A stretch of 64,000 nucleotides of DNA, taken from positions 41,528,551-41,592,550 of the forward strand of contig NC_054872.1 in assembly GCF_018320785.1 (NCBI RefSeq). The letters are read 5' to 3'. This DNA is from Cheilinus undulatus (lineage: Eukaryota > Chordata > Actinopteri > Labriformes > Labridae). The position numbers and the translations under genes are program-made. The notes below the pieces were generated by a model. It worked only from the letters and a program-made list of their open reading frames with translations. It was not told the origin of the DNA and made no database searches. This document shows positions 194 through 57,429 of this stretch, in pieces (position 1 is the stretch's first letter; each line of letters opens with the position of its first letter).

Positions 194-3100
194 GCCCTGC
201 ATATTATGGTTGGTTTGCTGAACATTGGCCTTGGAGCAATCCTCCTCAATAGTGGTTATGGCTCTTCGTGGCAGATGGATGAGAGCAAGTATCCTATTTG
301 GATGGGAGTACTGGTAAGCAAACCAACATGTTATTTGTTTTTTTGGTTATTTTGCTTATTAGCCAACATTTTCCATAATTCTAATTTAAGTCTGGTTTGT
401 GTTTCTGAATAACTCCAAGTCTTTTGTGAAGCTAGAATTAGGAACTCTGCAATTTCATTGGGGGGTTTGCAGTGATTCTGGGGTATTATGGCTTGTTCAT
501 ACAGGACAGGACCTGCTCTGCGTTAGCATGTTGACATTGATATTAAGATTAAAACACCAGAGATAGTTCACTAACCCTCTGAGCAGCTTTGAAAACGATT
601 TTCAAGAATATGTCAAGAGGGTTTTTTTTAATGATCTGGCATATTTCTGAAACAGTGCAGATTTGTTTTTTCCCCATCTCATTAAAAGTAGTTTTTTTTT
701 TTTTTTTTTTTTTTTACTGATTACAAGATTTGCCTTCTGTATATTTCCCTGTCTTACATCCGAGTGTACATGTTTTTTTATGGTTGTGAATACTTGACTA
801 AAAACAGAACGAAGACATATTTCTTATAGGCACAGGTCAACCCAAAAACAGCTCCTCAATGTTTCTTTAATGTCTTAGTTGTCAGTTGACATTAATAAGT
901 CTCATTATTAAATTGCTTACCCTGGTGCATGAGTGTTACCCTTGCTTCATGAAATACTTAAGTTGAGGACAATAGTAATGGCTCATGGTTCTCAGCCTTG
1001 GTGTGAAAAGGTGAAAGGTTAAATTATTTTCTTTTTTGTCTCTTCTTTAGTTTATTTTGTTCGGCATCATGAACATTTTGTCTGAGAAGTTCTCAAGTCC
1101 ATGTCTGGTGAGTAGTACAGCTTTATAACATCTTCATTTGAGCTTTCATTTGATGTTCAACTGTTATTCTTGTTTTGTATAAATCAGTGTTACTCAACCC
1201 TGCTAAACAATGAGCCAAATTGTTGAAACTAGAAAAGCACTTGGAGAGGGCAGACCTCCGCCATTAGCCCTATCTCGAAATAATACAGAATCCTTTAAAA
1301 AATTCCTGGATCCAGACAGTGATCCAGATCACTCCCAAAATCTAATCAGTTCTATGCCATTTCTGACATTTCCTGAAAATTTCATCAACATCCGTCCATA
1401 ACCTTTTGAGTTATGCTGCTAACAAACAAACTAACTAACAAACCCTGCCAATCACATAACCTCCTTGGCGGAGGTAAAAAAATACCTTTGCAAGAGCCAC
1501 AATCCAAATGCTCAGTCAGGCTGAGTGGGAACACAGTCTGAAACCACTGACTACAGGTACATGTGGTCATAAATTGAGTTTCCTGACATTTATAATGGAC
1601 CTGATTTTAGTACACAAAGCAGAGCCTGAAGGCTCTCGTCAGCTGAGCTCATCACTTAAGGATGTGAAGCTGAATTAATTTTGAAAAGTTTTGTTAATAT
1701 CAAGTTTTAGATCAGTTGTTTCTCTGTTTTTAAGCAATTCATTTACTTCTTTTTACTGAAGCTAATCGGCATAAAAATCGCTCCATGATTGATCAAAATC
1801 AAAGCGTAGCTTTAAGGTGTAGATCGATGTTTTGGTGTTCTACTGATTTGATTGGATAATTAATTAACAGGTTGGATGTATTGATATGAGGGGAGATCTC
1901 GTGAGATCGAAACGTCACGAGATTTCTCATCGAGGAAAAATCATAACTGGAAGTCATAAAAGATCACAAAGATGGCCTGGACACTTTAAAACTGTTGGTA
2001 GGAGAGCTAAAGAAGAAACGGAGCTGATCCGTGACCTATTCAGATCATGCTCCGTCCCCTCCGCTTGCGCTTCTTGGGGTTGCACATGATCTGCCAATGC
2101 GTAATAAGTTCATCATAACGGTCCAAAATGATGAAATGTTGCTGCTGTGCCGTCTCCATAAGGGGAATATAGTGTTAAATTAGTTTGTGTATGCACACAG
2201 ACTCGATCTTAGTGCCGGTATCTGTGAGTTTGTAACTTGGGTTACAACTTGGGTTGTAACTGTTTCCGCGTTTCTTTGTCATGTCTCCTTCTTGTCTCAC
2301 TGTCTGTCAGCCATACATCCATCAGCTGTTGGCTGCACGTATCATCAATCAGAAGATTAACATAAGCAGCGCAACAGGCGGTTTTATACTTCAGCGGTAA
2401 ACTTAGCGAAACAAACTCTTTTTTCAGCGCCATAGAGTCTATTGTTAGCTCCAAAAACCACAGTTTTAGCCCTATTTAAACGTGCCCTGCTTGTTGTCTG
2501 ACAGGCAGAGCAGAGACACACACTCGCTCACCAACGCACACATGCTCATCTGTGCGTCATGTCCAACACTGTCAAAGCTCATATGAACAAAAAGCGCACA
2601 AAAACGATCAAATAATCTATTTCTCTACATTACAGCAAATGTATTATTGACAGGAATATTTCTTCTGAGTGTTTTAAATATGGATGTCCTTAAAGAGGAT
2701 GAGAAATAGTTTGATTTTACTGATGCAGCTTTTTATATCTCAGTCTGTTGTAAACAGTGTTTAAAGTACTTTCAAAATAATCTAAATGCTTTTATTATAA
2801 TTATTGTAATTGTGCCAGTGAGTGTATAGTGTAGTAAAATAAAAATTTGGTGGACTATTACAATGAAAGATTTGATTTGAAGAGCATTAAAATGTACGGT
2901 TTGAGTCAGAGTTAGACAAGATAAACTGTTTGTAAGCACTAATAGCCTATTCAGTACAAGAGAAGTTAGTTTAAACATTTCTGAATAGACCTGAATGCTT
3001 TGCAATTATGACTTTCAGTTGTATAAAGTTCATATTATCCACCCATCTATTTTTTTCCAAAATTAAAAAAAGTGTAAAATCTTGTCTCGTCTCGTGAGAT

Positions 3101-5961
3101 AAGAGTCTCGTCACACCCCTAATTGATATACATCGATGGATGATTACACCCCTACTGAATACCAGTATTAGATACCTGAAAACTTGATATTCACCTTGAC
3201 TAAGTGCATGTTAGTGTGTCTGACAGAGTTGACAAAAAACAAGATATGATGGACAAAAAGTCATATTTCAGAAAAAAATTGAAATAGAAATCTGTTCCTT
3301 CACACAACTGCTAGTTTACACAAATCTCCCCTTCAAATTATTGTTGTAAAAAAAGTGCAAAGTCAGGAAATATCTGTGCAGTGTCACAGTGAAAAGAAAG
3401 CATTTACTGTACATGGGTGCTAGTGCTGCTGCTGTTTTGATGTTAAGAAAAAAAATTATCATAATTATTTTTAATTGAAATTGAGATCACAATAGTTTAA
3501 CACAATTACTCATGGGTTTTATAAGATCTGCATCAAATGCATTTATTGAATTTTAACACCTTTAACACTTTGACTAAAAAGCAGAAAATGAATTTAGATA
3601 AATGGGAAAAATTTAAATATCTAAAAATAATAGTGTATGGGTTAAAAACAACTGTGAGCCCGCATGCAATGCAGAAATCATTTAAACTCAGTTATGTTGT
3701 TATCATGTCTGTTGGATGCCAAAATCAGAATAAAGATAAAACCTCAGCACTAGTAGGCACCATGGATCACTCACCCCTACTCTGCACTTTGTGCATTGTT
3801 ACTTTTCCCTCAGCAGTGTTTTATTTTACACTGTTTGAGAAAAAATTATCACGATTATTCTCAATTGAAATTGAGATCACAATAAGTAAACACAATTACT
3901 CATGGGTTGTATTGAGATCCGCATCAAATTCATTTATTGAATTTCACACTTATAACACTTTAACAAAAAAGCAGAAAATGAATACACTAGTAGGTGCCAT
4001 GGACCACCCATTCCTAGTCTGCACTTTGTGCATTCTCACATATCCCTCAGCAGTGTTTCTGGTGTGTTTGGTTTTGAATAAATTATGTATTTTTTCTTTT
4101 TGCAGGTCATCCTCAGTGTGGCCTTGAATCTATCAGGAGTTGCCTTTGCCATCACAGCCATCGTTCTCTACATCATCAATGTCTTAAAAATTTATTTGTG
4201 GTGGATGTGTCATGATTATGATTGGGACTACAGATATGACCGCAGGGTGACACCTTCACCTGAAGAAATGACCAAATGCCTGGAGACACAAGATCTGCTT
4301 CTGGTATGTGTTTAAAAAATGGTATTTAGTGAGTGAAAACACACCCTGTGTAGCTGAGGAATGGAAAAATTATTTTAATGGTTAGATTTCAGCTTTAAAG
4401 TTGGATCAGGGATTATCATACAGACTAACAACAAATTAACTATGAAAAACTTTTAAAAGGAGTGATTTTAAAGGTCACATCATTTCTTTTGTGTCTGATC
4501 AGATGATTTTAAGGAGCATCAATGCTGTGCTGATCGTCCTGGCAGTCCTGGAGCTCTGTGTCACCATCAGTTCTGCTGTTTTGGGGATCAAAGCTCTAAA
4601 GCAGAAGACAGAGAACAAGGTAGAGTCTACACATCATATCTCACTGTTTAACTTGTTAACACAGGGAATACTGGCTGTACAAACATGCTCTCATTTTTTT
4701 TGTGAAGCATTAGAGGTGAGAGGTCCTGAGTTTTAGAAGGCACATTGCCTTTGATGTTTATTTATCCTGAATTTGTTTTCAAGCAAAATTTTTATATTTG
4801 AACAGTTCTTTTGTTGCATAAATGTTTGTCCACATTACAATTAACTGCATTTACTGCAGCACTGCCTGTACCTGTCTCTGTTATTTTTCCTACGTATTTC
4901 CTGCTGCACTCTCACATCAGCTCGGCGTGACTTCATGTAAAAGTCTACAGGGTCTGGTGGAGATGTAGGTAAAGTCTGGGTGAAAAGTTTGTCCTTTTGC
5001 ATTCAGACTTGCAGCTTACTTCAGACTTAACAGTACCTCCATTAAAATTTTAAAGAGTAGCCAACAATGGAAATAAGGTTGTTTTTGTGATGTGAACTGG
5101 TTTATGCCTTTAGAGTTAGAACTGCTCTCTGTAAAAGTCTATTAAAATGAGTTACCTGTGAAAGGAGCTATTAAAACTCACAGGTTCATTCTTACTCTAC
5201 CCATCATTCTTCTGATCTTCATCGTCCAAAAATTCTTACTTGCAGAGGTCAATTTTCATTCAGGTATAGAGGTAGCAAATTATGGAATAGCTTTTCTCAT
5301 CTGCTCAAGAAGTGTTCCTCTACAAATTGTTATAAAAGATATTTAAAGGATCATTTAATAACTGTTTTGAAATAGTTTCTCTTTTTCATGTCAGTTATGT
5401 GTACATTTTTTAATTTTTTTGTTTTTGTTTTTGTTTTTTAGTCATTATCTCTGGAGTCATTGGCAATACAGTCCCTCATAGAACTCACACATGATCATAC
5501 ACACCACTCACATTTTCTATGTAATCTTTTTTTTTTCTTTTCTTCCTTTTTATAATTGTTGTTGTATGTATTTTGTTGCTCGTTTGTCATAACTTCTGAG
5601 TAACTTGTTTTTTTGTTTATTTTTTTTTCTTTTTTGCATGTTATATGTGCATATAATATTGTGTAACTTTAATATCCTTTAGGTGGAGGCTTCAAATAAG
5701 CCCTTTGGGCTTTTCGCCTCTTTCTGCACCTCATACAATTTGTCATCTTTGTCTTTTTTGTATTTCATAATTGTGCAGAATAAATAAAATTAAATTAAAT
5801 TAAATTAAAAACTTTATTGCTGGTTTAAACTGTGTAACAAAAGTTCTCATAAAGATTACATCGTGCGATTTCATGATGTTGATTTTCTCTTCCAGAGCCC
5901 TGATGACCCAGAACAGTACAAACCACTGCTGGAGGAAGTCACCAGTAACCCTGCAGCTTAA
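194..5961 (+). CDS. ms4a-like: MS4A-like four-transmembrane protein, copy 1 (5' end outside window)
   Basis: Coding exons are 194-313 (B), 1051-1107 (C), 4106-4303 (D), 4503-4619 (E) and 5896-5961 (F, stop TAA). All junctions are phase 0 with GT/AG borders, giving 185 codons. The roughly 59-codon exon A found in the other copies must lie just upstream, because position 1 matches the first coding intron of copies 2 and 3. Exon B starts [18 protein letters not shown] (TM1), followed by the loop NSGYGSSWQMDESKYP. B and C form TM2, D holds TM3 plus an acidic, aromatic second loop (CHDYDWDYRYDRRVTPSP), E holds TM4 and F the tail [15 protein letters not shown]. The fold and hydrophobic pattern are those of the CD20/MS4A family, which are membrane proteins of blood cells and some chemosensory cells in mammals. 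The exact ortholog is not resolved. Exon C reads EKFSSPCL where the other copies read EKFPSPCL. Confidence 0.9.
1226..1475. repeat. Dispersed repeat inserted in intron C-D of copy 1
   Basis: Copy 2 runs directly from AGCCAAATTGTT to ATACCTTTGCAAG, while copy 1 has about 250 bp between them. The insert has short complementary ends (ACCTCCGCCA near 1255 and TTGGCGGAGGTA near 1465). A relative lies at 22765-23620. The family was not identified, and a MITE-like element is possible. Confidence 0.6.
1888..3121. mobile_element. Non-autonomous hAT-like element in copy 1 intron
   Basis: A 1234-bp insert is flanked by the 8-bp duplication ATTGATAT (1880-1887 and 3122-3129). The ends are imperfect inverted repeats: GAGGGGAGATCTCGTGAG on the left and CTCGTCACACCCCTA on the right. 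Copies 2 and 5 lack the insert. No transposase reading frame is visible. The 8-bp duplication and the TAGGGGTG-type end fit the hAT superfamily, which is an inference. Confidence 0.72.
3438..4060 (+). repeat. Local tandem duplication in the intron before exon D of copy 1
   Basis: Two diverged copies of the same segment lie side by side, about 3438-3830 and 3838-4060. Both contain AATTGAAATTGAGATCACAA, a CATGGATCA/CATGGACCA site, CTGCACTTTGTGCATT and CCCTCAGCAGTGTTT. Copies 2, 3 and 5 carry this segment once. The duplication keeps a long frame open by chance (3537-4127). Confidence 0.7.
5173..5810 (+). mobile_element. 3' end of a truncated non-LTR retrotransposon (LINE)
   Basis: This insert lies in the last intron of copy 1 and is absent from copies 2 to 4. 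The left part reads like a worn C-terminus of a LINE reverse-transcriptase ORF, and is followed by a T-rich 3' UTR. It ends in TAAATAAAATTAAATTAAAT, the short-repeat tail typical of L2/CR1/Rex-type elements. The 5' end is truncated. The clade assignment is uncertain. Confidence 0.6.
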
Positions 5962-13554: not shown

Positions 13555-13570
13555 CGACAGGATCAGCAGG

Positions 13571-16500
13571 ATGTCTGTGACCATGACCAGAAGTGACGGG
13601 GTCACTGTGTTCACTTTGACCTCGGACCCCCAAAGTTCTTTACCTCCAATATGCCAAATCCTCAAAGGCCTCTGCTACAGCCCTGTCTGCTGCTCTGTGT
13701 CTCAGCGCCTGAAGAAGTTTCAGGGAGCTTCTCAGTCAGTCCTGGGGGTGAGTTACAACCACACACGTTTTTCAACTTATTCTGTGAAACTTCACCTTTA
13801 GAATGTTTACATACAACTCAGCAGCTTTTGAATTAGTTTTTCTTCTTCCACACAGGTCTGATTTAATCTTTAATCTTTGAGGAAATAATTTGTTTCCAAA
13901 GAACTATTAGCTTAAGCAAAATGTTAATCCAACTGAATTTTTCATTCTCTTTCCTACCAGCTCTATAGTATTGTCATAATCATGTCAGTCTCATTTTAAA
14001 AGAGTGTTTTCATAATACTGTCAGAACTCTGTACCTCTAGGATCTTCAGGTAAAGTTCTTTTTATTTAGGAAAGCAACTTTTAGGAAAGATAATGAAACT
14101 TAGAGAAAGAGGTCCTATTAAAGTACTCTCTGCACCACAGCTCTGATTTCGAATGTACTCAAACCTAGGGATGGGAACCGACAACTGGTTCCTGTTGAGA
14201 ACCGATTCCAATTGGCTTGATCCATCGCCATCATTTACATTTAATCTTGATGATTTCCTTATTGATGCCTTACCTCCGCGTGCCATAAAAAGAAGGCCTC
14301 CCATGTGACAGTCAGCTAAACAGAGAAGCTGAGGAAATAAACATTTACTGGGCTATACAGTATTGCCGAAAGGTGTTTAAAAAACACATTTTCACAAGCA
14401 CTTGTCGGCATGCATGCATAAGCACAATGAGAGGAGTGTGCGTCTCTGCAGTGCTTCATCCAACCCTTTATCAAAATGCTTTGAGCCTAAAATAAAACAC
14501 GTTTATATGGAGATGTTTACAGGAGTGGGGTAAGTGAATTAGGTTAAATCAGGGCAGGGGATCAAATGAAGTTTCCTTTTTTTTCTTTTTCAATGACACA
14601 GACGTGCGCTCTTTTTCCTCCCTCCCCTCCCCTCCTCCCAGAGGTAAGATGAGAAGTAATAATCCAAATCTAATATCATAGAATCTGGGAATGTTAAGGA
14701 ATATTCTGTGTGCTTTTAAACAGAAAAAGATTGGATTTTATGATTGTTTACACCGCTTTCCACATTATTAAGCAAATGACATTTTTCTCTTATTTTCCTA
14801 AATATAAATGCAAATGACAGAGTATTTTTCAAGTCATCAGCCAGTAGAGCATAATTCAAATATTTTTGAACAAACTTCATAATGATAACCTATTTTTTTT
14901 TAAATAAAAACGTCAAAATGCACTGTTCCACATGTTCCACATTATTAAGCAGGCCACAGGTTTCAAGCAACATAGGAAAGAAAAAGGATCTCTCTGCTGC
15001 TGAAAAGTGTCAGATAGTGTAATGCCTTGGACAAGGAATGAGAACATTAGATATTTCATGAAAAATGAATCGTGATCAACGTACTGTGAAGGAATTTGTG
15101 GCTGATTCAGAGCACAGCCGGGTTCGTGCAGATAAAGGCATAATGAGGAAAGGTTTCTGCCAGACAAATTGATCAGATTAAGAGAGCAGCTGCTAAAATG
15201 CCATTGCAAAGCAGCAAACAGGTATTTGAAGCTGCTGGTGCCTCTAGAGTCCCACCAACCTCAAGGTGTAGGATCCTCCAGAGGCTGGCAGTCGTGCATA
15301 AACCTACTATTTGGCCGCCCGATCCAATACTCACAAGCAGAAACGGTTGCAGTGGGCCCAGAAATACATGAGGACTCATTTTCAAACAGTCTTGTTGACT
15401 GGTGAGTGCCGTGCAACCCTGGATGGTCCAGATGGAGGAGTGGTGGATGGTTGGTGGATGGCCACCATGTCCCAACAAGGCTGTGATGCCAGCAAGGAGG
15501 GGGTCCTGTTTTGGGCCAGATTCATGAGGAGAGAGCTGGTAGGCCCCTTTAGGGTCCCTGAAGGTGTGAAAATTACCTCAGCAAAGAGGTTCTGACTGAC
15601 CACTTTCTTCCATGGTAAAAAAAAAAGAAGAGCAGTTCCTTCTGTAGCAAAACTTTCTTCATGCATGACAATGCACCATCTCATGCTGCAAAGAATCCCT
15701 CTGTGTCATTGGCTGCTATGGGCATAACAGGAGAGAAAATCATGGTGTGGCCCCCATCCTCCCCTGACCTCAACCCTACTGAGAACCAATGGAGCATCCT
15801 CAAGCTAAAGATCTATGAGGGTGGGAGGCAGTTCACATCAAAACAGCAGCTCTAGGAGGATATTCTGACATCCTGCAAAGAAGTTCAAGCAGAAACTCTC
15901 CAAAAACTCGCAAGTTCAATGTATGCAAGAATAGTGAAAGTGATATCAAAAAAGAGCTCCTATGTTAACATGTAACTTGGCCTGTTAAGATGTTTTTGAT
16001 TGAAATAGCTTTTGATTTCAGTAAATATGACCTCCTAATGCTGTAAATTCAAAAAATGACCATTTTCAGTTCTTTACAACCTATAAAATGTTTTAAAACT
16101 CTGTCGTGCTTAAAAATGTGGAACAGTGCATTTGAGGTTTTTATTTTTAAAAAAATAATGGTTATTATTATGAAGTTTGTTCAAAAACATTTGAATTGTG
16201 CTCTTACGGCTGATGACTTGAAAAATATTCTGACTGTCATTTGCATTAATATTTAGGAAAATAAGAGAAAAATGTTGTTTGCTTAATAATGTGGAAAGCA
16301 GTGTATGTCCGCGTTGTGCTTCAATGGCGAGCTCTGTCCTGCTGAGTGTTTACTTTATGATGAGCCTATAAAACGTTAGAGAATACTTTAGTGCATAAAA
16401 TGACCAACAAGCACTAATTAATTTCATCTACATTCATATTAAACGGGTAAAGATAAGTTTAAACGTTTTTAAAAACCCTCAGTGGTTTCTATTGTACCGG

Positions 16501-19500
16501 ATGGGCATGGCTGCAGCAGCACCTGTGGGCATGCATAATAACTTCTCATCACTGATCTACATGCAGAAAGAAGAGCTAAAGCATTTTTAAACTTAAGTTG
16601 TTTTAGATATGTGCCGTACCAAGCCATGGCACGCGAGTATCTGTGCGCTGGTATATGTGCGAGTGTTCGTCCTTTGCAAAACTGTCCCAACATCATTGAC
16701 AGGAGTTCAGTCGCCAATTTTAAAGCGTCGTCATACACAGGCAGGGGTGCTGCAGGGGGAAAAATAGACATAGTCTTGAGAAATTGATTATTAATGTGCG
16801 CTCATCCCACAGCAGCATCTTCATGATGTTAATTAAAGCAACACCGTGGCCATTTTTAATACCCCAGGATACAGTATTACCGTATTACCACCCATTTCTA
16901 GTGAACTGTCACAAACACAGACTAAAGTAGCCAAAACTGTGGCTTCATTTCTCCTAAAATGATGCACACAGGGCATGAGAAACGTCTGTCAAACAATGAT
17001 GTCTAATGCATGAAATGCATCTTTTTGCCCAATAACTGTTAATTTTGTACAAGTTCAAGTTATTTTGATACCTCTGGAGATCTGGAATCCAGAGATTAGT
17101 TTTATATTTATTTTAAGGTTTTGTCTTTTAAAGAAAATGAGCAGTAGTACTGTATTCTAATTCGAGTTCACCGATTAAAGATCCAGAGAGCAGTTTGTTT
17201 TAACAAACATTTCCAACAAAAAGATCTTTTGTATATTTTAGAATGTCCTCCTCTCAAACACTTGATGTTTAACATTTTTTACAATCTAAAAAGAAAATTC
17301 ACAGGAAGGAATCGATAAGTGATTCGATAAAGAATCACATCAATAAGGAGAATCGATAACGGCATTGATATCAATAAAATTGTATCAATTCCCATCCCTA
17401 CTCAAACCATTGCACATGATAAGTATAGTAAAACTGTACAGGTACGTGTTGTTCACACTGTGTTTGCTCCTCCTCAGGCCCTGCATATTATGGTTGGTTT
17501 GCTGAACATCGGCCTTGGAGCAATCCTCCTCTATGGTGACGCTTCATGGCAGATGTATTACTACAAGTTTCCTATTTGGTTGGGAGTACTGGTAAGCAAA
17601 CCAACATTTAATTTGTTTTTTGGTTATTTTGCTCATTAACCAAAATTTTCCATAATTTTAATTTAGGTATGGTTTGTGTTTCTGAATAACTCCAAGTCTT
17701 TTGTGAAGCTAGAATTAGGAATGATGCAATTTCATTGGAGGTTTGCAGTGATTCTGGGGTATTACAGCTTGTTCACACAGGACAGGACCTGCTATGCATT
17801 AGCGTGTTGACATTAATATTAAAGGGATACTTCAAAATTTTGGCAAATTCGTCCATTGCCATAATCCCTATAGTCTTAGTAATAGGTTCGTCACCTTCAG
17901 TTGTCGGTGCAAGCTGGACAAGTTGTGACCCGTACATTCACCACGCTATGAAATAATCATGGAACATTACGAGACGGAGATGTTTTAATGCTAAATTCAA
18001 AGCCGGAACTACACTCCAGGCATGGCTGCTGCACTGTATCGCTCCGCCCAGTGGTTTACTCAAGAAATAGTATTTGCTTCATGCATCGTAATGTTACATA
18101 ATTATACGTTATTATTTCATAGCGTGGTGAATGTGCAGGTCACAACTTGTCCACAAGAGCGTTTTGGAGTTGTTGGATTGTGTATTTGATGAGTTTGATG
18201 AGGGAAAGCTGGAATACCATCTGCTTACATTGAGTTGGCACAGCAGGTCCGAACTCGGCAGCGGCCGATCTAAAAATAGCTTGCACCGACGACTAAAGGT
18301 AACGAACCTATTACTAAGACTATAGGGATTATGGCAATGGAAGAATTTGCCAAAATGTTGAAGTATCCCTTGAAGGTTAAAACACCAGAGATAGTTCACT
18401 AACCCTCAGAGCAACTTTGAAAATGATTTTCAAGAATATGTCCAGAGGGATTTTTTGATAATCTGACTGACTTTTTTAATCAGTGCAGATTTGTTTTTTC
18501 CCCATCTCATTAAAAGTAGGTTTTTTACTGATTACAAGATTTGCCTTCTGTACATTTCCCTGTCTTACATCTGAGTTCACATGTTTTTAATGGTTGTGAA
18601 TGCTTGACCAAATACAGAGCAACAACATATTTCTTTTAGGAACAGGCCAACCCAAAAACAGCTCCTCAAGGCTTCTTTAATGTCTTAGTTCTCAGCTGAC
18701 ATTAATAGGTCTCATTATTAAATTTCTTACTCTGGTGCATGGGTGTTACCCTTGCTTCATGAAATACTTAAGTTGAGGACAATAGTAATGGCTCGTGGTT
18801 CTCAGCCTTGGTGTGAAAAGGTGAAAGGTTAAATCATTTTCTTTTTTTTCTCTTCTTTAGTTCATTTTATTTGGCATCATGAACATTTTGTCTGAGAAGT
18901 TCCCAAGTCCATGTCTGGTGAGTAGTACAGCTTTATAACATCTTCATTTGAGCTTTCATTTGATGTTCAACTGTTATTCATATTTTGTATAAATCAGTGT
19001 TACTCAGTCCTGCTAAACAAAGAGCCAAATTGTTAAAAAAAAAAATACCTTTGCAAGAGCCACAATCCAAATGCTCAATCGGGCTGAGTGGGAAAATGGT
19101 CTGAAACACCACTGACCGCTCTATGAGAAACGGATGACAACAGGGAAAAACAGACTAATATCAGCTTAAATTATGGATATTTGGACTCAGCAGAGATCCA
19201 TCCATTTCCAAAAGACACAGTCGACCATGGACATTGATATGTGGTCATAAATCGAGTTTCCTGACATTTATAATGGACCTGATTTTAGTACACAAAGCAG
19301 AGCCTGAAGGCTCACACCAGCCGAGCTCGTCACTGAAGGATGTGAAGCTGAATTAACTTTGAAAAGTTTTGTTCATATCAAGGTTTAGATCAGTTGTTTC
19401 TCTGTATTTCAGCAATTCATTTACTTCTTTTTACCTAAGCTAATCAGCATAAAAATCGCTCCATGATTGTTCAAAATCAAAGCGTAGCTTTAAGGTGTAG

Positions 19501-39082: not shown

Positions 39083-39303
39083 TGAAATATCATCTGTAAA
39101 TATCAGGCTATATCAGCTGTAAATATCGGGCTATAATGGCTGCATCAAACAACACTGGTTGCAAAAATTTGGGTATATTGGCTATAAATATCAGGCCATG
39201 GTGGCTGTAAATATCGGGCTATATTGACTGAAAATATCAGGCTGTATTTACTGTAAATATCAGACTTTATCTGCTTGAAAAATAAAGCTGTATTGGCTTT
39301 ATA
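39083..39303. repeat. Minisatellite, unit 3 (truncated)
   Basis: About nine units related to ATCAGGCTATATTGGCTG. The array stops abruptly and joins sequence that in other units lies about 700 bp beyond the array, so its right part and flank were deleted. Confidence 0.85.
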
Positions 39304-41366: not shown

Positions 41367-44300
41367 ATGTCTGTGACCATGACCAGAAGTGACGGGGTCA
41401 CTGTGTTCACTTTGACCCCGGACCCCCAAAGTTCTTTACCTCCAATATGCCAAATCCTCAGAGGCCTCTGCTACAGCCCTGTCTGCTGCTCTGTGTCTCA
41501 GCGCCTGAAGAAGTTTCAGGGAGCTTCTCAGTCAGTCCTGGGGGTGAGTTACAGCCACACACATTTTTCAAGTTAGTCTGTGAAAGCACACAACTCAGCA
41601 GCTTTTAAATAAGTTTTTCTTCCTCCACACAGGTCTGGTTTAACCTTTTATGAAATAATTTGTTTCCAGAGATACATTAGCTTAAGCAAAATACTAGTCC
41701 AATTGAATTTTTCTTTCTCTTTCCTAACAGTTGTATATTGTTGTCATAATCATGTCAGAATCTCATTTTAAAAGAGTGTTTTCATAATACTTTCAGGGCT
41801 TTGTACCTCTAGGATCAGGTAAAGTCCTTTTTAAACAACTTTTAGGAAAGACAATGAAACTTAGAGAAAGAGGTCCTATTAAAGTACTCTCTGCACCACA
41901 GCTCTGATCTCTAATGTACTCAAAACCTTGCACATGGTAAGTATAGTAAAACTGTACAGGTATGTGTTGTTCACACTGTGTTTGCTCCTCCTCAGGCCCT
42001 GCATATTATGGTTGGTTTGCTGAACATCGGCCTTGGAGCAATCCTCCTCAGTAGTGGTCTTGGCTCTTGGCGGCAGATGGATGAGATGAAGTATCCTATT
42101 TGGATGGGAGTACTGGTAAGCAAACCAACATTTTATTTGTTTTTTGGTTATTTTGCTTATTAGCCAAAATTTTCCATAGTTTTAATTTAAGTCTGGTTTG
42201 TGTTTCTGAATAACTCCCAAGTCTTTTGTGAAGCTAGAATTAGGAATGATGCAATTTTACTGGGGGTTTGCAGTGATTCTGGGGTATTACAGCTTGTTCA
42301 TACAGGACAGCTAATGCTATACATTAGCATGTTAACATTGATATTAAGATTAAAACACCAGAGATAGTTCACTAACCCTCTGAGCAGCTTTGAAAACGAT
42401 TTTCAAGAATATATCGAGAGGGTTTTTTTTGATAATCTGACAGATTTCTGAATCAGTGCAGATTTGTTTTTCCCCATCTCGTTAAAAGTTTTTTTTTTTT
42501 TTGTACTGATCACAAGATTTGCCTTCTGTACATTTCCCTGTCTTACATCTGAGTTCACATGTTTTTTATGGTTGTGAATACTTGACCAAAAACAGAGCAA
42601 CAACATATTTCTTTTAGGCACAGGCCAACCCAAAAACAGCTCCTCAAGGCTTCTTTAATGTCTTAGTTGTCAGTTGACATTAATAAGTGTCATTATTACA
42701 TTTCTTGCCCTGGTGCATGTTATCCTTGCTTCATGAAATACTTAAGTTGAGGACAATAGTAATGGCTTGTGGTTCTCAGCCTTGGTGTGAAAAGGTGAAA
42801 GGTTAAATCATTTTCTTTTTTGTCTGTTCTTTAGTTCATTTTATTCGGCATCATGAACATTTTGTCTGAGAAGTTCCCAAGTCCATGTCTGGTGAGTAAT
42901 ACAGCTTTATAACATCTTCATTGGAGCTTTCATTTGATGGTCAACTGTTATCCACGCTTTGTATAAATCAGTGTTACTCAGTCCTGCTAAACAAAGAGCC
43001 AAATTGTTAAAAAAAAATACCTTTTCAAGAGCCACAATCCAAATGCTCAGTCTGGCTGAGCGGGAAAATGGTCTGAAACACCACTGGCTGCTCTATGAGA
43101 AACGGATGACAACAGGGAAAAACAGACTAATATCAGCTTAAATGAGAGATATTTGGACTCAGCAGAGATCCATCCATTCCCAAAAGACACAGTGGACCAT
43201 GGACATTGATATGTGGTCATAAATCGAGTTTCCTGACATTTATAATGGACCTGATTTCAGCACACAAAGCAGAGCCTGAAGGCTCACATCAGCTGAGCTC
43301 GTCACTGAAGGATGTGAAGCTGAATTAACTTTGAAAAGTTTTGTTAATATCAAATTTTAGATCAGATGTTTCTCTGTATTTCAGCAAGTCATTTAATTCT
43401 TTTCACTTTCTCTAATCGCTGTGAAGATCGCTCCATAGTTGTCAAATCTATTTGGGAACATTCGGGGTGTATTTCAGAACCAGCTCTACGTACCCCGGTT
43501 GTTTCTCCTAATCTAGTCAATTGTAACACAAGTTAAACCCTCATTTTCCTGCTTTAATTTGACAGACTCACATGGTATAGCCCTCAACTTTTATATAATG
43601 TTGTATAAACTGTTAAGCCTCAGATAGTGGAAATAACCCCACTATTTTTTTTATATATCTATATATTTTTGGGCATTTTTGTGCTTTTATTAGATAGAGG
43701 AGGACAGTGGATAGAGTCGGAAACAGGGTCAAGAGTGGGGAGAGACATGCGGTTAAGGGCTTCAGGCTGGATTAGAACCCGGGCCGCTCGCGTACATGGG
43801 AAGCGCCTTAAACCACTAGGCCACCTGCTCCCCATGACACCAGTATTTAACAAAATAGAACTTATTCATCACTGAATGAATGATTGTTGTATTTACACTT
43901 ATCGTCTTGTTTACTTATAAACATACCGTTATGACTCCAAAAATTTCTATAAACAAAAATCTATCAGCTGAGGATCTGGACTGACCGCCATGAACATTGT
44001 CAAGATGTAGTTATTAAAAAAAGACGGCAAATTTAACCTCTAACCTTGAATTGAGTTGTCTCTGTTTGAAATACAGTGCTGTGAAAAAGTATTTACCCCC
44101 TTTCTGATTCCAGATTTTTTTCCATATGTATCACACTTAAATGTTTCGGATCATCAGACCAATTTTAATATCTCACAAAGACGACCCAAGTAAATACAAA
44201 ATGCAGCTTCTTTTATTTATTAAGGGACAAAAATTCAAACCTGTCTGGCCCTATGTGAAAAAGTAAATGCCCCCTAACCTAATAACTGGTTATGCCACCC

Positions 44301-47300
44301 TTGGCAGCAATAACTGAAATCAAGCATTTGTGCATTGCTGTGGAGGAATTTTGGCCCACTCTTCTTCACAGAATTGTTTTAACCCAGCCATATTGGAGGG
44401 TTTTTCAGCATGAACTGCCTGTTTAAGGTCACACCATAGCATCTCAATTGGGTTTAAGTCCGGACTTTGACTTGGCCACTCCAAAACTTTAATTTTTTTT
44501 TTTTTTTTAACCATTCAGAGGTGGACTGGCTGGTATGTTTGGGGTCGTTGTCCTGCTGCATAACCCAAGAGCGCTTGAGCTTTAGGGCAGGAATTGATGG
44601 CTGGACGTTGGCCTTCAGGATTTTCTGATAGACAGCAGAATTCATTGTTCCATCAATCACAGCAAGTGGTCCAGGTCCTGAAGCAGCAAAGCAGCCCCAG
44701 ACCATCACACTGCCACCACCATGTTTGACTGTTGGCATGATGTTCTTTATCAAATACTGTGTTATTTTTACTCCAGATGTAACGGGCTGCAAACCCTCCA
44801 AAAAGTTCAATTTTTGTCTCATCAGTCCACAGAATATTTCTCCAAAAGTCCTGGGGATCATCAAGATGTTTCTTAGTAAATATAAAAGGTTTTTGCCTTG
44901 GAACTCTCCCATAATGCCATTGTTGCCCAGTGTCTTTCTTGTGGTTGAGTCATGAACTCTGACCTTAACTGAGGCCAGTAGGCCTGCAGTTCTTTGGATG
45001 TTCTTTTGTGACCTCCTGGATGAGTCATTGTTGCACTCTTGGAGTAATTTTCGTTGGCCGACCACTCCAATCAGGTAGGTTGATAAGCTGGCTCTAATGG
45101 CTCTGATTGTGGTTCGCTGGAGTCCCATAGCCTTGGAAATGGCTTGGCATCCTTTTCCAGATTGATAGATTTCAATCACTTTGTTTCACTTTGTCTTACA
45201 GCTTCTATTTAAGTGATTTTCTTGATTCATCTCATTGGCGGTGGTGGCGGTAATCAGGCCTGGGTGTGGCCAGTGAAATTGAACTCAGCTTTCCAAGAAC
45301 TGTGGTTAATCACAGTTAACTCATGATTTAACAAAGGGGGCAATTACTTTTTCACATAGTGCCTGATAGGTTTGGATTTTTCCCCTCAATAAATAAAACA
45401 ATTTAGAAACAGCATTTTGTATTTACTTGGGTTGTCTTTTTGAGATAATAGAATTGGTTTGATGATCCAAAACATCTAAGTGTGATAAATAGGCAAAAAC
45501 ATCTAGAATCAGAAAGGGGGCAAATACTTTTTCATGGCACTGTATGTCCACAAAGCCGAGAGAGAAGAGTCCCCTTTCCCTCAGCCGATAACTTTAAGCA
45601 ACTACTGCCACTGCTAGCTTGTTGCAGATGCTGCTGGTGGGCTGGAACTTTCACCAGGCATGCTGGGGGGATTTCAGAATAAAAGTGTAGTTTTAAGGTG
45701 TAGATTGATTTTGATGTTCGACCGATTTAATTGGATAATTAATTAACCAGTTGCTGTATTGATATTCATTGATGGATGGTTACACCCCTACTGAATATCA
45801 GTATAAGATACCTAAATACTTGCTATTCATCTTGATTTAGTACATTTTAATGTGTCTGACAAAAAAATCAAGATATGACGTGCACAAAAGTTATATTTTG
45901 GGAGAAAAAAAATGTAATTAAAAATCTGTTCCTTTACACAACTGCTAGTTGAGACCTCAACTTCCACAAAGTTCCACTTCAAATTATTGTTGTAAAAAAA
46001 AAAAACAAACTACAAAGTCAGGAAATATCTGTGCGGTGTCACAGTGAAAGAAAGCATTTACTGTAAGTGGGCAGGAATGCTGCTCTGTTTTTGCATGAAA
46101 AAAAAACATAATTATGATTATTTTTAATTGAAATTGAGATCATAATAATTGAACACAATTCCTCATGGGTTTTATTGAGAGCCACATCTGTATTTATTGA
46201 ATTTCAGCACCTTTAACTCTTTAACAAAAAAGCAGCAAATTAATACACTAGCAGGCGCCATTGATCATCCACCTCTAATCTGCACTTTGTGCATTGTCAT
46301 GTATCCCTCAGCAGTGTTTTATTTTACACTGTTTGTGTTTGGTTTTGAATAAATTATGTATTTGTTTCTTTTTGCAGGTCATCCTCACTGTGGTCTTAAA
46401 TCTATCAGGAGTTGCTATTGCCATCGCAGCCATCGTTCTCTACATCATCAACGTCTTAGGCATTTATTTGTGGTGGATGTGTCATGATGGTGCTTATGAC
46501 AAATATGATGACAGGTTGGCACCTTCACCTGAAGATATGCCCAAATGCCTGGAGGCTCAAGATCTGGTTCTGGTATGTGTTTAAAAAGTGGTATTTAGTG
46601 AGTGAAAACACACGCTTTGTAGCTGAGGAATGGAAAAATTATTTTAATGATTGGATTTCAAATTTAAAGTTAGATCAGTGATTATTATACAGCTTTACAA
46701 CAAGTTAACTATGAAAAAACTTTTAAAAGGAGTGATTTTAAAGGTCACTTTGTTTCTTTTGTGTCTGATCAGATGATTTTAAGGAGCATCAATGCTGTGC
46801 TGATCGTCCTGTCAGTCCTGGAGCTCTGTGTCACCATCAGTTCTGCTGTTTTGGGGATCAAAGCTCTAAAGCAGAAGACAGAGAACAAGGTAGAGTCTAC
46901 ACATCATATCTCACTGTTTAACTTGTTAACACAGGGAATACTGGCTGAGCAAACATGCTCTCATTTTCTTTGTAAAGCATTAGATGTCTGAATGTCTGTG
47001 CTGCTATGAGTTTGGCCTTTTGAACTAATGTCACATCTTCACTCCTGAAAACATCAAAGAACTACAGGATGATGGTGAACAAAGCAGCAGGGTTGGATGC
47101 CATTATGACAAAGTTGTTAAAGGGTTCCCACTGATCCTTGAAAAGTCTTTAAAAGTCTTAAATTAGATTTTTGAAATTTAAGGCTTTAAAAAGTCTTAAG
47201 AGTCTTAATTTTACTGATTTTAAGAAGGCACATTGCCTTAGCCGGTATTTATCCCAAAATTGTTTTCTAGCAAAATTTTTAGATTTGAACAATTCTTTTT

Positions 47301-47808
47301 TTCTTTTTTTGCATACATGTTTGTCCACATTACAATTAACCACATTTACTGCAGCAGTGTCAGTTTTACTATATATTTCCTGCTGCACTCTCTCATCAGC
47401 TCAGCCTGACTTCATGTAGAAGTGTACAGGGGCTGGTGGAGATGTAGGTAAAGTCTGGGTAAAAGTTTGTCATTTTGCATTCACACTTGCAGCTTACCTC
47501 AGAATTAACAGTACCTCCATTAAAGATTTAAAGAGTAGCCAACAATTGGAGTAAGGTTGTTTTGGTGATCTGAACTGGTTTATGCCTTTAGAGTTAGAAG
47601 TGCTCTCTGTAAAAGTCTATTTATTAAAATGAGTTACCTGTTAAAGAAGCTATTCTAACCTTTATTACTGGTTTAACTGTGTAACAAAAGTTCTCATAAA
47701 GATTACATTGTGTGATTTCATGATGTTGATTTTCTCTTTCAGAGCCCTGATGACCCAGAACAGTGCAAACCACTGCTGGAGGAAGTCACCAGTAACTGTG
47801 CAGCTTAA
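41367..47808 (+). CDS. ms4a-like: MS4A-like four-transmembrane protein, copy 4
   Basis: Exons are 41367-41543 (A), 41996-42115 (B), 42835-42891 (C), 46378-46572 (D), 46773-46889 (E) and 47743-47808 (F), giving 243 codons with all junctions in phase 0. Loop 1 is two residues longer than in copies 2 and 3 ([16 protein letters not shown]). Exon D is one codon shorter, with a changed second loop ([17 protein letters not shown]) and extra changes in TM3 ([20 protein letters not shown]). The tail reads [15 protein letters not shown], so the tyrosine of the YKPL motif present in the other complete copies is replaced by Cys, and NPAA becomes NCAA. Exon A is identical to copy 5. The candidate leader exon is missing upstream, so expression may rely on another promoter. 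Intron C-D carries a SINE-like repeat and a Tc1 element. Confidence 0.92.
43645..43838 (-). mobile_element. tRNA-derived SINE-like repeat in intron C-D of copy 4
   Basis: On the minus strand it starts GGGGAGCAGGTGGCCTAGTG and carries an A-box-like GTGGCCTAGTGG and a B-box-like GGGTTCTAATCC at the right spacing. It then continues into a tail ending in an AT-rich run. Copy 3 lacks it. The layout is that of a fish tRNA-derived SINE, with family not assigned. Confidence 0.7.
44074..45542 (-). mobile_element. Tc1/mariner element in intron C-D of copy 4
   Basis: The element is 1469 bp between TA dinucleotides (44072-44073 and 45543-45544). Its ends are CAGTGCTGTGAAAAAGTATT and AATACTTTTTCATGGCACTG, a well-known fish Tc1 end type. 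The transposase gene is on the minus strand. The sequence looks relatively young, since only a few lesions are visible. Confidence 0.93.
44320..45179 (-). pseudogene. Tc1-like transposase with frameshift
   Basis: A 241-codon frame starting at 45179 holds a DNA-binding region ([20 protein letters not shown]), [20 protein letters not shown] and the catalytic [13 protein letters not shown]-run at about 44496-44508 (a lysine run on the minus strand) shifts the frame. The rest, including [19 protein letters not shown], continues in another frame to 44320. Expansion of the homopolymer is the simplest explanation of the break. Confidence 0.88.
46983..47215. repeat. Insertion shared with copy 3
   Basis: Same block as 33848-34095, at the same site after exon E. 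It is absent from copies 1, 2 and 5. Confidence 0.7.
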
Positions 47809-50681: not shown

Positions 50682-51258
50682 TGTAAATATCAAGCTATAT
50701 CAGCTGATATTTGAACCAATGTTGGCTTTAAATATCAGGTTATATTATTTACTATAAATGTCAGGCTGTATTGGCTGTAAATGTCAGGCTTTATCTGCTC
50801 AAGAAATAACACTGTAAGCTTATTTACTGCAGTTCGTGGGCTATATTGACTATGGATTTTGGGCTATATTTCCTGTAAATTTTTGGCTATATTGGCTGAA
50901 AATATGGGTTTATGTTGGCTGTAAATATCAGGCTATATTTTCTGTAAATATGGGGCTTTATTAGCTATAAATAGCAGGCTATGTTGGCCATTAATATTGG
51001 GCTATATTGGCTATAATAATCATGCTTTCTCTGCTGTAAAAAAATATTGTGAATTGGCTGCAGTTATTTGGCTATATCAGGTGTTAATGTTGAGCTTTAT
51101 TGGCTGTAAATATGGGGCTATGTTGGTTGTAAATATCAGGCAATATTTGCCATAAATAGCAGGCTATATTGGCTGTAAATTAGGGGCTATATTTGCTGTA
51201 AATAACAGGCTATGCTTTCCATAAATAGCAGGTAATATTGGCTGTAAATAGTGGATTT
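50682..51258. repeat. Minisatellite, unit 4
   Basis: About 24 diverged units with core ATCAGGCTATATTGGCTG, ending at the same flank as units 1 and 2 (AGTGGATTTATGTACCAGTG). Confidence 0.88.
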
Positions 51259-51267
51259 ATGTACCAG

Positions 51268-52705: not shown

Positions 52706-52721
52706 CGACAGGATCAGCAGG

Positions 52722-55700
52722 ATGTCTGTGACCATGACCAGAAGTGACGGGGTCACTGTGTTCACTTTGACCCCGGACCCCCAAAGTTCTTTACCTCCAA
52801 TATGCCAAATCCTCAGAGGCCTCTGCTACAGCCCTGTCTGCTGCTCTGTGTCTCAGCGCCTGAAGAAGTTTCAGGGAGCTTCTCAGTCAGTCCTGGGGGT
52901 GAGTTACAGCCACACACATTTTTCAAGTTAGTCTGTGAAAGCACACAACTCAGCAGCTTTTAAATAAGTTTTTCTTCCTCCACACAGGTCTGGTTTAACC
53001 TTTTATGAAATAATTTGTTTCCAGAGATACATTAGCTTAAGCAAAATACTAGTCCAATTGAATTTTTCTTTCTCTTTCCTAACAGTTGTATATTGTTGTC
53101 ATAATTATGTTGGAGTCACATTTTATAAGAGTGTTTTCATAATACTGTCAGAGCTCTGTACCTCTAGGATCTTCAGGTAAAGTTCTGTTTATTTAGGAAG
53201 GAAAGACAATGGAATTTAGAGAAAGAGGTCCTATTAAAGTACTCTCTGCACCACAGCTCTGATCTCTAATGTACTCAAACCATTGCACATGGTAAGTATA
53301 GTAAAACTGTACAGGTACATGTTGTTCACACTGTGTTTGCTCCTCCTCAGGCCCTGCATATCATGGTTGGTTTGCTGAACATCGGCCTTGGAACAATCCT
53401 CCTCAATTGTGCTTCCGTCACTTCATGGCAGATGCGTGACTACGAGTATCCTATTTGGATGGGAGTACTGGTAAGCAAACCAACATTTTATTTGTTTTTT
53501 TATTTTGCTCTTAAACCAACATTTTCCATAACCTAAATTTAAGTATGGTATGTGTTTCTGAATAACTCCCAAGTCTTTTGTGAAGCTAGAATTAGGAATG
53601 ATGCAATTTCATTGGGGGTTTGCAGTGATTCTGGGGTATTACAGCTTGTTCACACAGGACAGGACCTGCTCTGCATTAGCATGTTGACACTGATATTAAG
53701 ATTAAAACACCAGAGATAGTTCACTAACCCTCTGAGCAGCTTTGAAAACGATTTTCAAGAATATATCAAGAGGGTTTTTTTAATGCCCTGGCATATTTCT
53801 GAATCAGTGCAATTTGTTTTTTCCCCATCTCATTAAAAGTAGTTTTTGACTGATCATAAGATTTGCCTTCTGTACGTTTCCCTGTCTTACATCTGAGTTT
53901 ACGCATATTTTTTTGAATACTTGACCAAAAACAGAGCAACAACATATTTCTTTTAGGCACAGGCCAACCCAAAAACAGCTCCTCAAGGCTTCTTTAATGT
54001 CGTTGTTCTCAGTTGGCATTAATAAGTCTCATTATTAAATTGCTTACCCTGGTGCATCAGTGTTACCCTTGCTTCATGAAATACTTAAGTTGAGGACAAT
54101 AGTAATGGCTTGTGGTTCTCAGCCTTGGTGTGAAAAGGTGAAAGGTTAAATCATTTTCTTTTTTGTCTCTTCTTTAGTTCATTTTATTCGGCATCATGAA
54201 CATTTTGTCTGAGAAGTTCCCAAGTCCATGTCTGGTGAGTAGTACAGCTTTATAACATCTTCATTGGAGCTTTCATTTGATGGTCAACTGTTATTCATGT
54301 TTTGTATAAATCAGTGTTACTCAGTCCTGCTAAACAAAGAGCCAAATTGTTGAAAAAATACCTTTGCAAGAGCCACAATCCAAATGCTCAGTCTGGCTGA
54401 GTGGGAAAATGGTCTGAAACACCACTGGCTGCTCTATAGGAAACAGATGAAAACAGGGAAAAACAGACTAATATCAGCTTAAATTATGGATATTTGGACT
54501 CAGCAGAGATCCATCCATTCCCAAAAGACACAGTGGACCATGGACATTGATATGTGGTCTTAAATCAAGTTTCCTGACATTTATAATGGACCTGATTTCA
54601 GTACACAAAGCAGAGTCTGAAGGCTCACATCAGCTGAGCTCGTCACTGAAGGATGTGAAGCTGAATTAACTTTGAAAAGTTGTGTCAATATCAAGTTTTA
54701 CATCAGTTGTTTCTCTGTATTTCAGCAATTCATTCACTTCCTAACTACCGATTTGATTGGATAATTAATTAACCAGTGGATGTACTGACATACATTTATG
54801 GATGATTACATTCTACTAAATACCAGTATTAGTTACCTGAAAACTTGATATTCACCTTGATTAAGTGCATGTTAGTGTGTCTGACAGAGCTGACAAAAAT
54901 CAAGATATGATGGACAAAAAGTCATATTTCAGAAAAGAAATGGAAATAAAAATCAGTCACTTCACACAACTACTAGTTTACACAAATCTCTACTTCAAAT
55001 TATTGTTGTAAAAAAGTAAAAAGTCAGGAAATATCTGTGCAGTGTCCCAGTGAAAGCATTTACTGTACATGGGTGCTAGTGCTGCTCGGTTTTTATATAA
55101 AAAAATTATCATGGTTATTTTTAATTGAAATTGAGATCACAATAATTAAACACAATTACTCATTGTTTTTTTTAAGATTTGCATCAAACGTATTTATTGC
55201 AGTTTATCACTTGAAACACTTTGACTAAAAAGCAGCAAATGAATTTAGATAAGTGGGGAAAATATAAATATCTAAAAATATTAATACATGGAGTTAAAAA
55301 AAACAACTGTGAGCCCTCATGCAATGCAGAAATCATTTAAACTCAGTTATGTTGTTATCATGTCTGTTGGATGCCAAAATCAGAATAAAGATTAAAACTC
55401 AGCACTAGTAGGCACCATGGATCACTCACACCTAGTCTGCACTTTGTGCATTGTTACTTTTCCCTCAGCAGTGTTTTATTTTACACTCTTTGTGTTTGGT
55501 TTTGAATAAATTATGTATTTTTTTCTTTTTGCAGGTCATCCTCAGTGTGACCTTGAATCTATCAGGAGTTGCCTTTGCCATCGCAGCCATCGCTCTCTAC
55601 ATCATCAACGTCTTAAAAATCTGGTTGGAGTGGATGTGTGATGATTATGATTATAATTACGAAAACAGACACAGGGTGACACCTTCACCTGAAGAAATGA

Positions 55701-57429
55701 CCAAATGCCTGGAGACACAAGATCTGGTTCTGGTATGTGTTTAATAAGTGGTATTTAGTGAGTGAAAACACACACTGTGTAGCTGAGGAATGGAAAAAAT
55801 ATTTTACTGATTGAATTTCAATTTTAGTTAGATCAGTGATTATTATACAGACTAACAACAAGTTAACTGTGAAAAAACTTTTCAAAGGAGTGATTTTAAA
55901 GGTCACATCATTTCTTTTGTGTCTGATCAGATGATTTTAAGGAGCATCAACGCTGTGCTGATCGTCCTGGCAGTCCTGGAGCTCTGTGTCACCATCAGTT
56001 CTGCTGTTTTGGGGATCAAAGCTCTAAAGCAGAAGACAGAGAACAAGGTAGAGTCTACACATCATATCTCACTGTTTAACTTGTTAACACAGGGAATACT
56101 GGCTGAACAAACATAATCTCATTTTCTTTGTGAAGCATTAGAGGTGAGAGGTCCTTATTTTTAGAAGGCATATTGCCTTTGATGTGTATTTATCCCAAAT
56201 TTGTAGCAAAATTTTTAGATTTGAACAATTCTTTTTTTGCATAAATGTTTGTCCACGTTACAATTAACCACATTTACTGCAGCACTACCTGTACCTGTCT
56301 GTGTTATTTTTCCTACATATTTCCTGCTGCACTCTCACATCAGCTCAGTGTGACTTCATGTAAAAGTGTACAGGGGCTGGTGGAGATGTAGGTAAAGTCT
56401 GGGTGAAAAGTTTGTCCTTTTGCATTCAGACTTGCAGCTTACCTCAGAATTAACAGTACCTCCATTAAAGATTTAAAGAGCCAAATATGGAAGTAAAGTT
56501 GTTTTGGTGATCTGAACTGGTTTATGCCTTTAGAGTTAAAACTGCTCTCTGTAAAAGTCTATTTATTTTATTTTATTTATCCGTTTATTTATCAGGGACA
56601 ATACATGAGCATTGCTGCATTTAATTACAGTGCAACCGATGCAATGTATAAAAGACATCTAGCCATGGCTAATTTGCAGTCCTTGTCCCTGGTTATGCTT
56701 TTGAGAAATAACACATATGATACAACAGAATAAAATGGACATAAAAGACTAACAATGGCAGAAGACATAAATGAACAACCACAAAAAATACATAAAAACA
56801 ACGGCAGCAAGACAAACATAAACATGCAGCCACATACATAAAAGCAACAGTAAGTCAGACATAAACATACGGACGAATGAAAATGACTAAAATGACAGTT
56901 AAGAGAATAGGTGAAGTAGCTAAGAAAAAAGATAAAAAGGAGTAAAATGAGCTGAATGATATAAAATTTTTAAGACATGTAGCTTAGTGTTCACAGATTT
57001 GCCTTTGTTTGAGCCATTGTTTTACCGTCTTATTGAATACTAGTCAGTCAGTGTTTTTTTATTTCTGATGGGAGAGTATTCCAGATCTGTGGGCCTTTAA
57101 CTGAGAAAGAGGACTGGCCAAATGTTGTTTTGCATTTTGCTGATTTACAGTCTCCACTAACTGCTCCTCTTGTAATGGCTCCTTTACTGGAGTACTTTTG
57201 AACCAGTTGACTGACCAGTTGTGGAGCAAGATCATTCACACACTTGAAAATCAGTTTGATGTTTATTAAAGATAGCTCATTGTGAAATGAGCTATTATAA
57301 CCTTTATAAAGTTCTCATAAAGATTACATTGCACGATTTCATGATATTGATTTTCTCTTCCAGTGCCCTGATGACCCAGATCAGTACAAACCACTGCTGG
57401 AGGAAGTCACCAGTAACCCTGCAGGTTAA
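52722..57429 (+). CDS. ms4a-like: MS4A-like four-transmembrane protein, copy 5
   Basis: Exons are 52722-52898 (A), 53351-53470 (B), 54178-54234 (C), 55535-55732 (D), 55931-56047 (E) and 57364-57429 (F), giving 244 codons with all junctions in phase 0. Loop 1 is NCASVTSWQMRDYEYP and TM1 has a Thr change (GLGTILL). Loop 2 is the most acidic (LEWMCDDYDYNYENRHRV), with Trp to Glu and His to Asp changes. Exon F starts [15 protein letters not shown], keeping the tyrosine motif, and ends NPAG. The stop codon TAA lies inside the TTAA target of a MITE, so the coding sequence ends exactly where the element begins. The candidate leader exon is missing upstream. The last intron carries a LINE tail. Confidence 0.93.
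56565..57270 (-). mobile_element. Truncated LINE in the last intron of copy 5
   Basis: The minus strand encodes a reverse-transcriptase ORF end (GAITRGAVSGDCKSAKCKTT, then QSSFSVKGPQIWNTLPSEIK), followed toward 56565 by a 3' UTR and an A/T tail. Copies 2 to 4 have the uninterrupted site (GTCTATTTATTAAAATGAG). Confidence 0.75.

Follow-up and report, generated by a model that had tools for sequence, protein, structure and literature searches.

In mice, proteins of the MS4A family (MS4A6C and CD20/MS4A1) have been reported as olfactory receptors whose ligands differ between members (PMC11026480). A review presents MS4A proteins as odor receptors of rodents that are not G protein-coupled receptors (GPCRs), describes the ancestry of such receptors as little known, and lists MS4A olfactory neurons in its table as demonstrated in rodents only (PMC7776563). 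Among fish, 21 MS4A genes were reported in zebrafish (Zuccolo et al. 2010, PMC2826416); according to that report, one of these genes, when probed, was expressed in the dorsal pharynx, the mesenchyme around the kidney glomerulus, and an unidentified neuron, with no expression of the same gene described at blood-forming sites. As presented there, the work on zebrafish genes such as those of MS4A17 concerns phylogeny and expression, and not loop-confined selection or a comparison with noncoding DNA. Here, we analyzed a stretch of 64,000 nucleotides (the window) from the genome of Cheilinus undulatus (GCF_018320785.1, contig NC_054872.1, positions 41,528,551 to 41,592,550), the forward strand of which carries five tandem MS4A (CD20-family) genes of six coding exons each and the beginning, at position 62015, of a sixth and more divergent gene.

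The explanation that we consider best, with a probability of roughly 0.7, is that a long unit duplicated repeatedly to form this array and that positive (diversifying) selection has pushed the two extracellular loops of its proteins apart, with very little change in the tails and in most of the membrane part. In the repeat analysis, the long unit was present five times, with a start-to-start spacing of approximately 9 to 18 kb in the five-copy repeat families. Gene models, scripted from conserved exon seeds, were intact: genes 2 to 5 comprise exons A to F, all in phase 0 and separated by GT-AG introns, with open frames of 242 to 244 amino acids (aa), of which exon A encodes the N-terminal 59. 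Exons B to F of gene 1 have the same phase and intron borders and encode 185 aa in an open frame; exon A of this gene would fall upstream of the window. The five-copy array proposed by an earlier model-made reading of the letters (the sequence-only reading) was thus confirmed, with an exon A in each of genes 2 to 5 and the sixth gene as corrections. A pattern search also located the five loop 1 strings and the three loop 2 strings quoted in that reading where it had placed them.

Membership in the CD20 family was assessed with profile and structure databases. Both of the genes submitted to Pfam (two of the five) matched the CD20 family (PF04103; gene 2, E = 1.3e-29; gene 5, E = 1.7e-30; 103.7 and 106.6 bits against a cutoff of 27.9). 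Against solved chains, gene 5 matched the CD20 chain 6vja at an E value of 1.2e-8, and 8 of the 10 distinct sequences found at E values up to 1 were CD20 or the beta chain of the Fc epsilon receptor (FcRbeta, MS4A2); the other two (E = 0.72 and 0.84) were an unrelated protein. With a profile of all five genes, the six PDB sequences at E values up to 0.001 were all CD20 or the Fc epsilon receptor beta chain. The likeness to CD20 and MS4A2 (chains such as 6vja, 6y92, and 8k7t; E values of 3e-9 to 3e-8 for the CD20 chains) extends from the first transmembrane span (TM1) to the start of loop 2. Loop 1 aligns by position with almost no identical residues, and the alignment stops where loop 2 starts, the array's loop 2 being rich in Asp, Tyr, and Trp.

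From the alignment with CD20 and the hydrophobic stretches, we infer four spans, two extracellular loops, and cytosolic ends; loops 1 and 2 would both face outward, as family knowledge of CD20 suggests. CD20 has a disulfide at the loop 2 Cys position. In all five genes, a pair of Cys residues (alignment columns 153 and 176) flanks the middle of loop 2, and the variation of this loop lies largely just past the first Cys. Loop 1 contains a Cys in gene 5 only. The array resembles the mammalian MS4A chemoreceptors in family, in tandem arrangement (17 genes in mice), and in its predicted four-span proteins; the mammalian system differs in its reported ligands and olfactory expression (PMC11026480).

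Introns and exons were aligned one at a time across the copies. At least four genes were represented in 4,879 noncoding columns, of which 469, in stretches with a local mean difference of at least 0.16, were removed as likely misaligned, leaving 4,410 filtered columns. The mean pairwise difference per site was 0.077 in the filtered noncoding set, 0.272 in extracellular loop 1 (ECL1), and 0.178 in extracellular loop 2 (ECL2). Values were far lower in exon A (0.008) and the TM4 part of exon E (0.010) and intermediate in TM1 (0.030), the TM2 part of exon B (0.029), exon C (0.032), and TM3 (0.057); in the divergence profile, the peaks ceased at the loop edges. Variable codons made up 13 of 15 in loop 1, all 13 changing the amino acid, and 24 of 36 in loop 2, 21 of them amino-acid changing, compared with 37.3% of 1,419 triplets in the filtered noncoding set (binomial p = 1.2e-4 and 3.3e-4, respectively). 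No filtered noncoding window of equal length reached the loop values (0 of 4,372 for loop 1; 0 of 4,303 for loop 2), a comparison that is partly circular because the filter had already taken out the high stretches. Without the filter, 3.5% of 4,841 windows and 5.3% of 4,772 windows reached the values of loops 1 and 2, respectively. The profile showed high noncoding divergence to be concentrated in a few stretches of the intron between exons C and D and at the upstream end; we took these, without proof, for repeats or nonhomologous alignment.

Codon-likelihood fits were performed with in-house code, with kappa fixed at the noncoding estimate; among the fits against the filtered noncoding yardstick, the six single-part tests used 2 of the 15 possible trees. 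Measured against filtered noncoding DNA, the nonsynonymous rate of the loops was 3.60-fold (likelihood ratio test [LRT] statistic, 74.2; p = 7e-18; ECL1, 5.52-fold; ECL2, 2.86-fold). When the filter was dropped and all 4,879 columns served as the yardstick, the ratio fell from 3.60 to 2.85 (LRT, 52.6; p = 4e-13; ECL1, 4.34-fold; ECL2, 2.26-fold) and the conclusion was unchanged; the synonymous rate of the loops was then 1.36-fold (p = 0.37). Local silent sites gave a ratio of nonsynonymous to synonymous rates (dN/dS, or omega) of 2.17 for both loops on their own best tree (LRT, 5.70; p = 0.017), and in a parametric bootstrap on the fitted tree, 4 of 300 neutral data sets attained the observed LRT, 2 of these with omega above 1. 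Omega was highest for loop 1 alone (4.38; LRT, 4.75). The result was similar on a star tree (omega, 2.03; p = 0.018) and with the loops extended by three codons on each side (p = 0.0145). Site models, for which no loops were preset, likewise favored a selected class (M2a versus M1a; LRT, 59.6 to 71.2; omega of that class, 9.7 to 14.5) on each of the four trees fitted, out of 15 possible. Sites with a probability above 0.8 fell in the loops in 12 of 13, 12 of 13, 20 of 23, and 21 of 27 cases on these trees, although the loops account for 51 of 244 codons.

Several results weigh against selection on the loops or temper it. The data are five sequences from one genome. The synonymous rate of the loops, compared with the filtered yardstick, had a raised point estimate (1.66-fold; LRT, 2.04; p = 0.15), and in a parsimony count in which every doubtful change was taken as synonymous, silent changes in the loops were clearly raised (7 against 1.3 expected and 15 against 3.1). 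Loop 2 alone gave an omega of 1.84 (LRT, 2.20; p of approximately 0.14). The signal also dropped when the 9 gap-adjacent codons were removed from the loops (p = 0.052), in the Cys-to-Cys segment of loop 2 (p = 0.077), and in ECL1 combined with the variable half of ECL2 (p = 0.072); the conserved half of loop 2 gave a p of 0.26. The p values of M2a are too strong because the model assumes one synonymous rate throughout the gene, which the yardstick fits contradict, and column 124, selected in all four M2a fits, sits in TM3. Pairwise Nei-Gojobori counts yielded a weaker signal (pN/pS of 1.51 for ECL1 and 1.05 for ECL2, with some single pairs below 1); we gave the likelihood fits more weight than these counts because many loop codons carry several changes. 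On balance, support for positive selection on the loops is good in comparison with noncoding DNA and moderate in comparison with local silent sites. The diversifying selection that the sequence-only reading had ascribed to the loops was borne out by likelihood, with loop omega above 1 and loop divergence above that of noncoding DNA, and less strongly by the pair counts. The outcome that it had associated with neutral drift, namely, loop dN/dS below 1 and introns as divergent as the loops, was not seen.

The remainder of the protein, here called the scaffold, evolved more slowly than noncoding DNA. With the filtered yardstick, its synonymous rate was 0.37-fold (LRT, 16.2; p = 5.7e-5) and its nonsynonymous rate 0.31-fold (LRT, 44.6); with the unfiltered yardstick, the synonymous rate was 0.30-fold (LRT, 25.5). 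Judged by its own silent sites, the scaffold had an omega of 0.84 (LRT, 0.23), which does not demonstrate purifying selection and is a further point against our explanation; the case for purifying selection thus rests on the noncoding yardstick. By that yardstick, nonsynonymous rates were 0.27-fold in TM1 (p = 0.018), 0.18-fold in the part of TM2 with exon C (p = 0.0009), and 0.75-fold in TM3 (p = 0.41), the last without clear constraint. TM1 and exon C look as though they have been kept by purifying selection.

Silent changes separated the exons further. Outside the loops, exons B, C, and D had silent changes similar to those of noncoding DNA (8 against 9.8 expected). Exons A, E, and F, a grouping chosen after the results were known, had too few when pooled (2 against 13.3 expected; p = 1.7e-4 by Poisson count; singly, p = 0.0027, 0.043, and 0.30). 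Exon A showed no silent changes in four genes against 5.9 expected (p = 0.0027); the Poisson count was used for this exon because its likelihood fit was uninformative, gene 1 being without data and its branch soaking up the fixed tree length. Between genes 4 and 5, the uniformity of exon A can be explained by exchange or by recent common descent. No exchange tract was evident at exons E and F, where the patch of low divergence stops near the exon edge on some sides, and the pattern fits constraint on silent sites equally as well as exchange. The uniformity of the scaffold seems to have two causes.

The noncoding DNA of the copies was clearly mosaic. In the filtered set, 61 of the 95 informative sites conflicted with the best single tree, compared with at most 25, 34, and 38 in three simulated sets of 300 each. 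Genes 4 and 5 shared 57 agreeing polymorphic sites in a row over 566 columns, a run that spans exon A. Among the 16 pair tests of longest identity runs, 12 had p values below 0.05 and 5 passed a threshold of 0.05/16; of these five, two between genes 2 and 5 passed barely (p = 0.0030; a single tract that recurred in both sets), and one, between genes 3 and 5, lay upstream where the alignment of the other genes fails. A test of incompatibility between neighboring sites was weak (p = 0.043). Long gap patterns were tried as markers of exchange and were unusable, being too fragmented by insertions. The mosaic introns and the identity run of genes 4 and 5 point to exchange between copies. The best trees of the loops also differed, pairing genes 1 and 4, and genes 2 and 3, with gene 5 apart in loop 1 versus genes 1 and 4, and genes 3 and 5, with gene 2 apart in loop 2. 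For both loops jointly, the best tree of loop 1 was just 0.68 log-likelihood units below the best, and the second tree of loop 2 was 1.49 units worse; separate reshuffling of the loops is suggested by these trees, and may have occurred, but we regard this as suggestive only. The claim of the sequence-only reading that conversion keeps the scaffold uniform therefore stands in part: the mosaic copies and the run over exon A agree with it, while the noncoding-like silent divergence of exons B, C, and D and the lack of an exchange tract at exons E and F do not.

Exchange could also mean that the loops are old rather than fast. Introns and scaffold would then have been homogenized, and loop variants that escaped exchange would be older at silent and amino-acid sites alike, as the noncoding mosaic (61 of 95 conflicting sites), the point estimate for loop synonymous changes (1.66 times noncoding), and the raised silent count in the conservative parsimony would lead one to suspect. 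Greater age, however, lifts both classes of site equally, yet loop omega was 2.17 (p = 0.017; 4 of 300 in the bootstrap), and there was no raised shoulder beside the loops in TM1 (0.030) or the TM2 part of exon B (0.029). We consider old loops an unlikely explanation, and if selection had kept the loop variants apart, that too would be a form of diversifying selection. Even less probable in our judgment is relaxed constraint combined with a higher local mutation rate in the loops, without selection for change. By eye, GAT and TAT codons abound in loop 2, and silent changes are perhaps somewhat raised. Relaxation nevertheless caps the amino-acid rate at neutral, and the rate seen was 3.6 (filtered) or 2.85 (unfiltered) times that of noncoding DNA and 2.2 times the local synonymous rate; moreover, none of the 16 tandem-repeat rows with scores of at least 80 overlaps exon B or D, and it is loop 1 that has the highest omega (4.38).

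Positive selection itself can be read in more than one way. In an arms race, a virus, parasite, or toxin would bind at the loops, and the loops would change to avoid being bound, not to acquire ligands. All of the sequence evidence for the best explanation is shared by this account, and in a scan of nine primates concerned with host-virus conflict, MS4A12 is one of 14 genes reported to carry at least 12 positively selected residues (PMC5737536). The contrast between copies in one genome suits a division of labor more naturally than escape, and no pathogen link was noticed in the window, though no search aimed at one was made. The data here fit ligand diversification and pathogen escape alike; we regard escape as conceivable, if somewhat doubtful.

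The coordinates of the genes and loops are compiled below.

Positions of the MS4A genes and their extracellular loops in the window (position 1 is its first letter)
Feature	Position	Strand	Details
MS4A gene 1, exons B-F	194..5961	+	B 194-313, C 1051-1107, D 4106-4303, E 4503-4619, F 5896-5961 including stop; exon A off window; 185 aa
MS4A gene 2, exons A-F	13571..21522	+	A 13571-13747, B 17478-17591, C 18861-18917, D 20298-20495, E 20694-20810, F 21457-21522; 242 aa
MS4A gene 3, exons A-F	29641..35934	+	A 29641-29817, B 30287-30400, C 31126-31182, D 33255-33452, E 33645-33761, F 35869-35934; 242 aa
MS4A gene 4, exons A-F	41367..47808	+	A 41367-41543, B 41996-42115, C 42835-42891, D 46378-46572, E 46773-46889, F 47743-47808; 243 aa
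MS4A gene 5, exons A-F	52722..57429	+	A 52722-52898, B 53351-53470, C 54178-54234, D 55535-55732, E 55931-56047, F 57364-57429; 244 aa
Start of sixth, more divergent MS4A-like gene	62015..63103	+	exon A 62015-62191, exon B 62990-63103 (donor by pattern only); same exon layout
Extracellular loop 1, gene 1	248..292	+	NSGYGSSWQMDESKY
Extracellular loop 1, gene 2	17532..17570	+	YGDASWQMYYYKF
Extracellular loop 1, gene 3	30341..30379	+	gene model and alignment
Extracellular loop 1, gene 4	42050..42094	+	gene model and alignment
Extracellular loop 1, gene 5	53405..53449	+	NCASVTSWQMRDYEY
Extracellular loop 2, gene 1	4187..4294	+	two invariant Cys
Extracellular loop 2, gene 2	20379..20486	+	two invariant Cys
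Extracellular loop 2, gene 3	33336..33443	+	two invariant Cys
Extracellular loop 2, gene 4	46459..46563	+	two invariant Cys; shorter by one codon
Extracellular loop 2, gene 5	55616..55723	+	two invariant Cys

For the sixth gene, exon B alone scored 17.7 bits against the CD20 profile, under the cutoff of 27.9, and its loop 1 reads unlike that of genes 1 to 5. Exons beyond A and B were not found within the window, past the end of which the gene runs. AT-rich minisatellites with a 23-base period occur at 11347-12100, 27609-28366, 39087-39298, and 50837-51251, one upstream of exon A in each of genes 2 to 5, and units may have undergone unequal exchange there; none with this period was listed ahead of the sixth gene among the tandem-repeat rows with scores of at least 80. 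The intron between exons A and B measures 3,730 bases in gene 2 versus 452 to 469 in genes 3 to 5, and within that of gene 2 lies a transposase fragment (DDE_3, PF13358; E = 1.1e-9) at 15619-15852. Exon F of gene 4 has Tyr-to-Cys and Pro-to-Cys changes; in the other four genes, that Tyr is part of a YKPL stretch, which we take to resemble a sorting motif. Rfam gave no match at gathering scores.

Among the literature matches listed, which were open-license papers judged by title and the start of the abstract, none dealt with selection confined to the loops of fish MS4A arrays, which speaks only weakly for novelty. A 2016 report in Cell on MS4A chemosensors may have discussed selection on mammalian MS4A loops, which could lower the novelty.

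If positive selection has indeed driven the loops apart, each copy would be a four-span surface protein in which loop 1 and the Cys-bounded loop 2 make one outer face. The constant helices would let the copies fold and assemble alike, resulting in several outer faces on one chassis, and the selection would most likely reflect a different ligand, chemical or microbial, for each face. A small receptor repertoire would be expected to look like this, with a constant chassis and a variable face in two parts. Only tentatively do we propose that the array may be such a repertoire, in which a shared chassis would allow mixing in oligomers, the two-loop face would be under diversifying selection, and exchange would reshuffle loops 1 and 2 independently, the whole forming a chemosensory or microbe-sensing set of fish distinct from GPCRs. 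The array gives specific codons and copies for ligand testing, and it adds an independent line of evidence that MS4A proteins benefit from diversity in their outer face.

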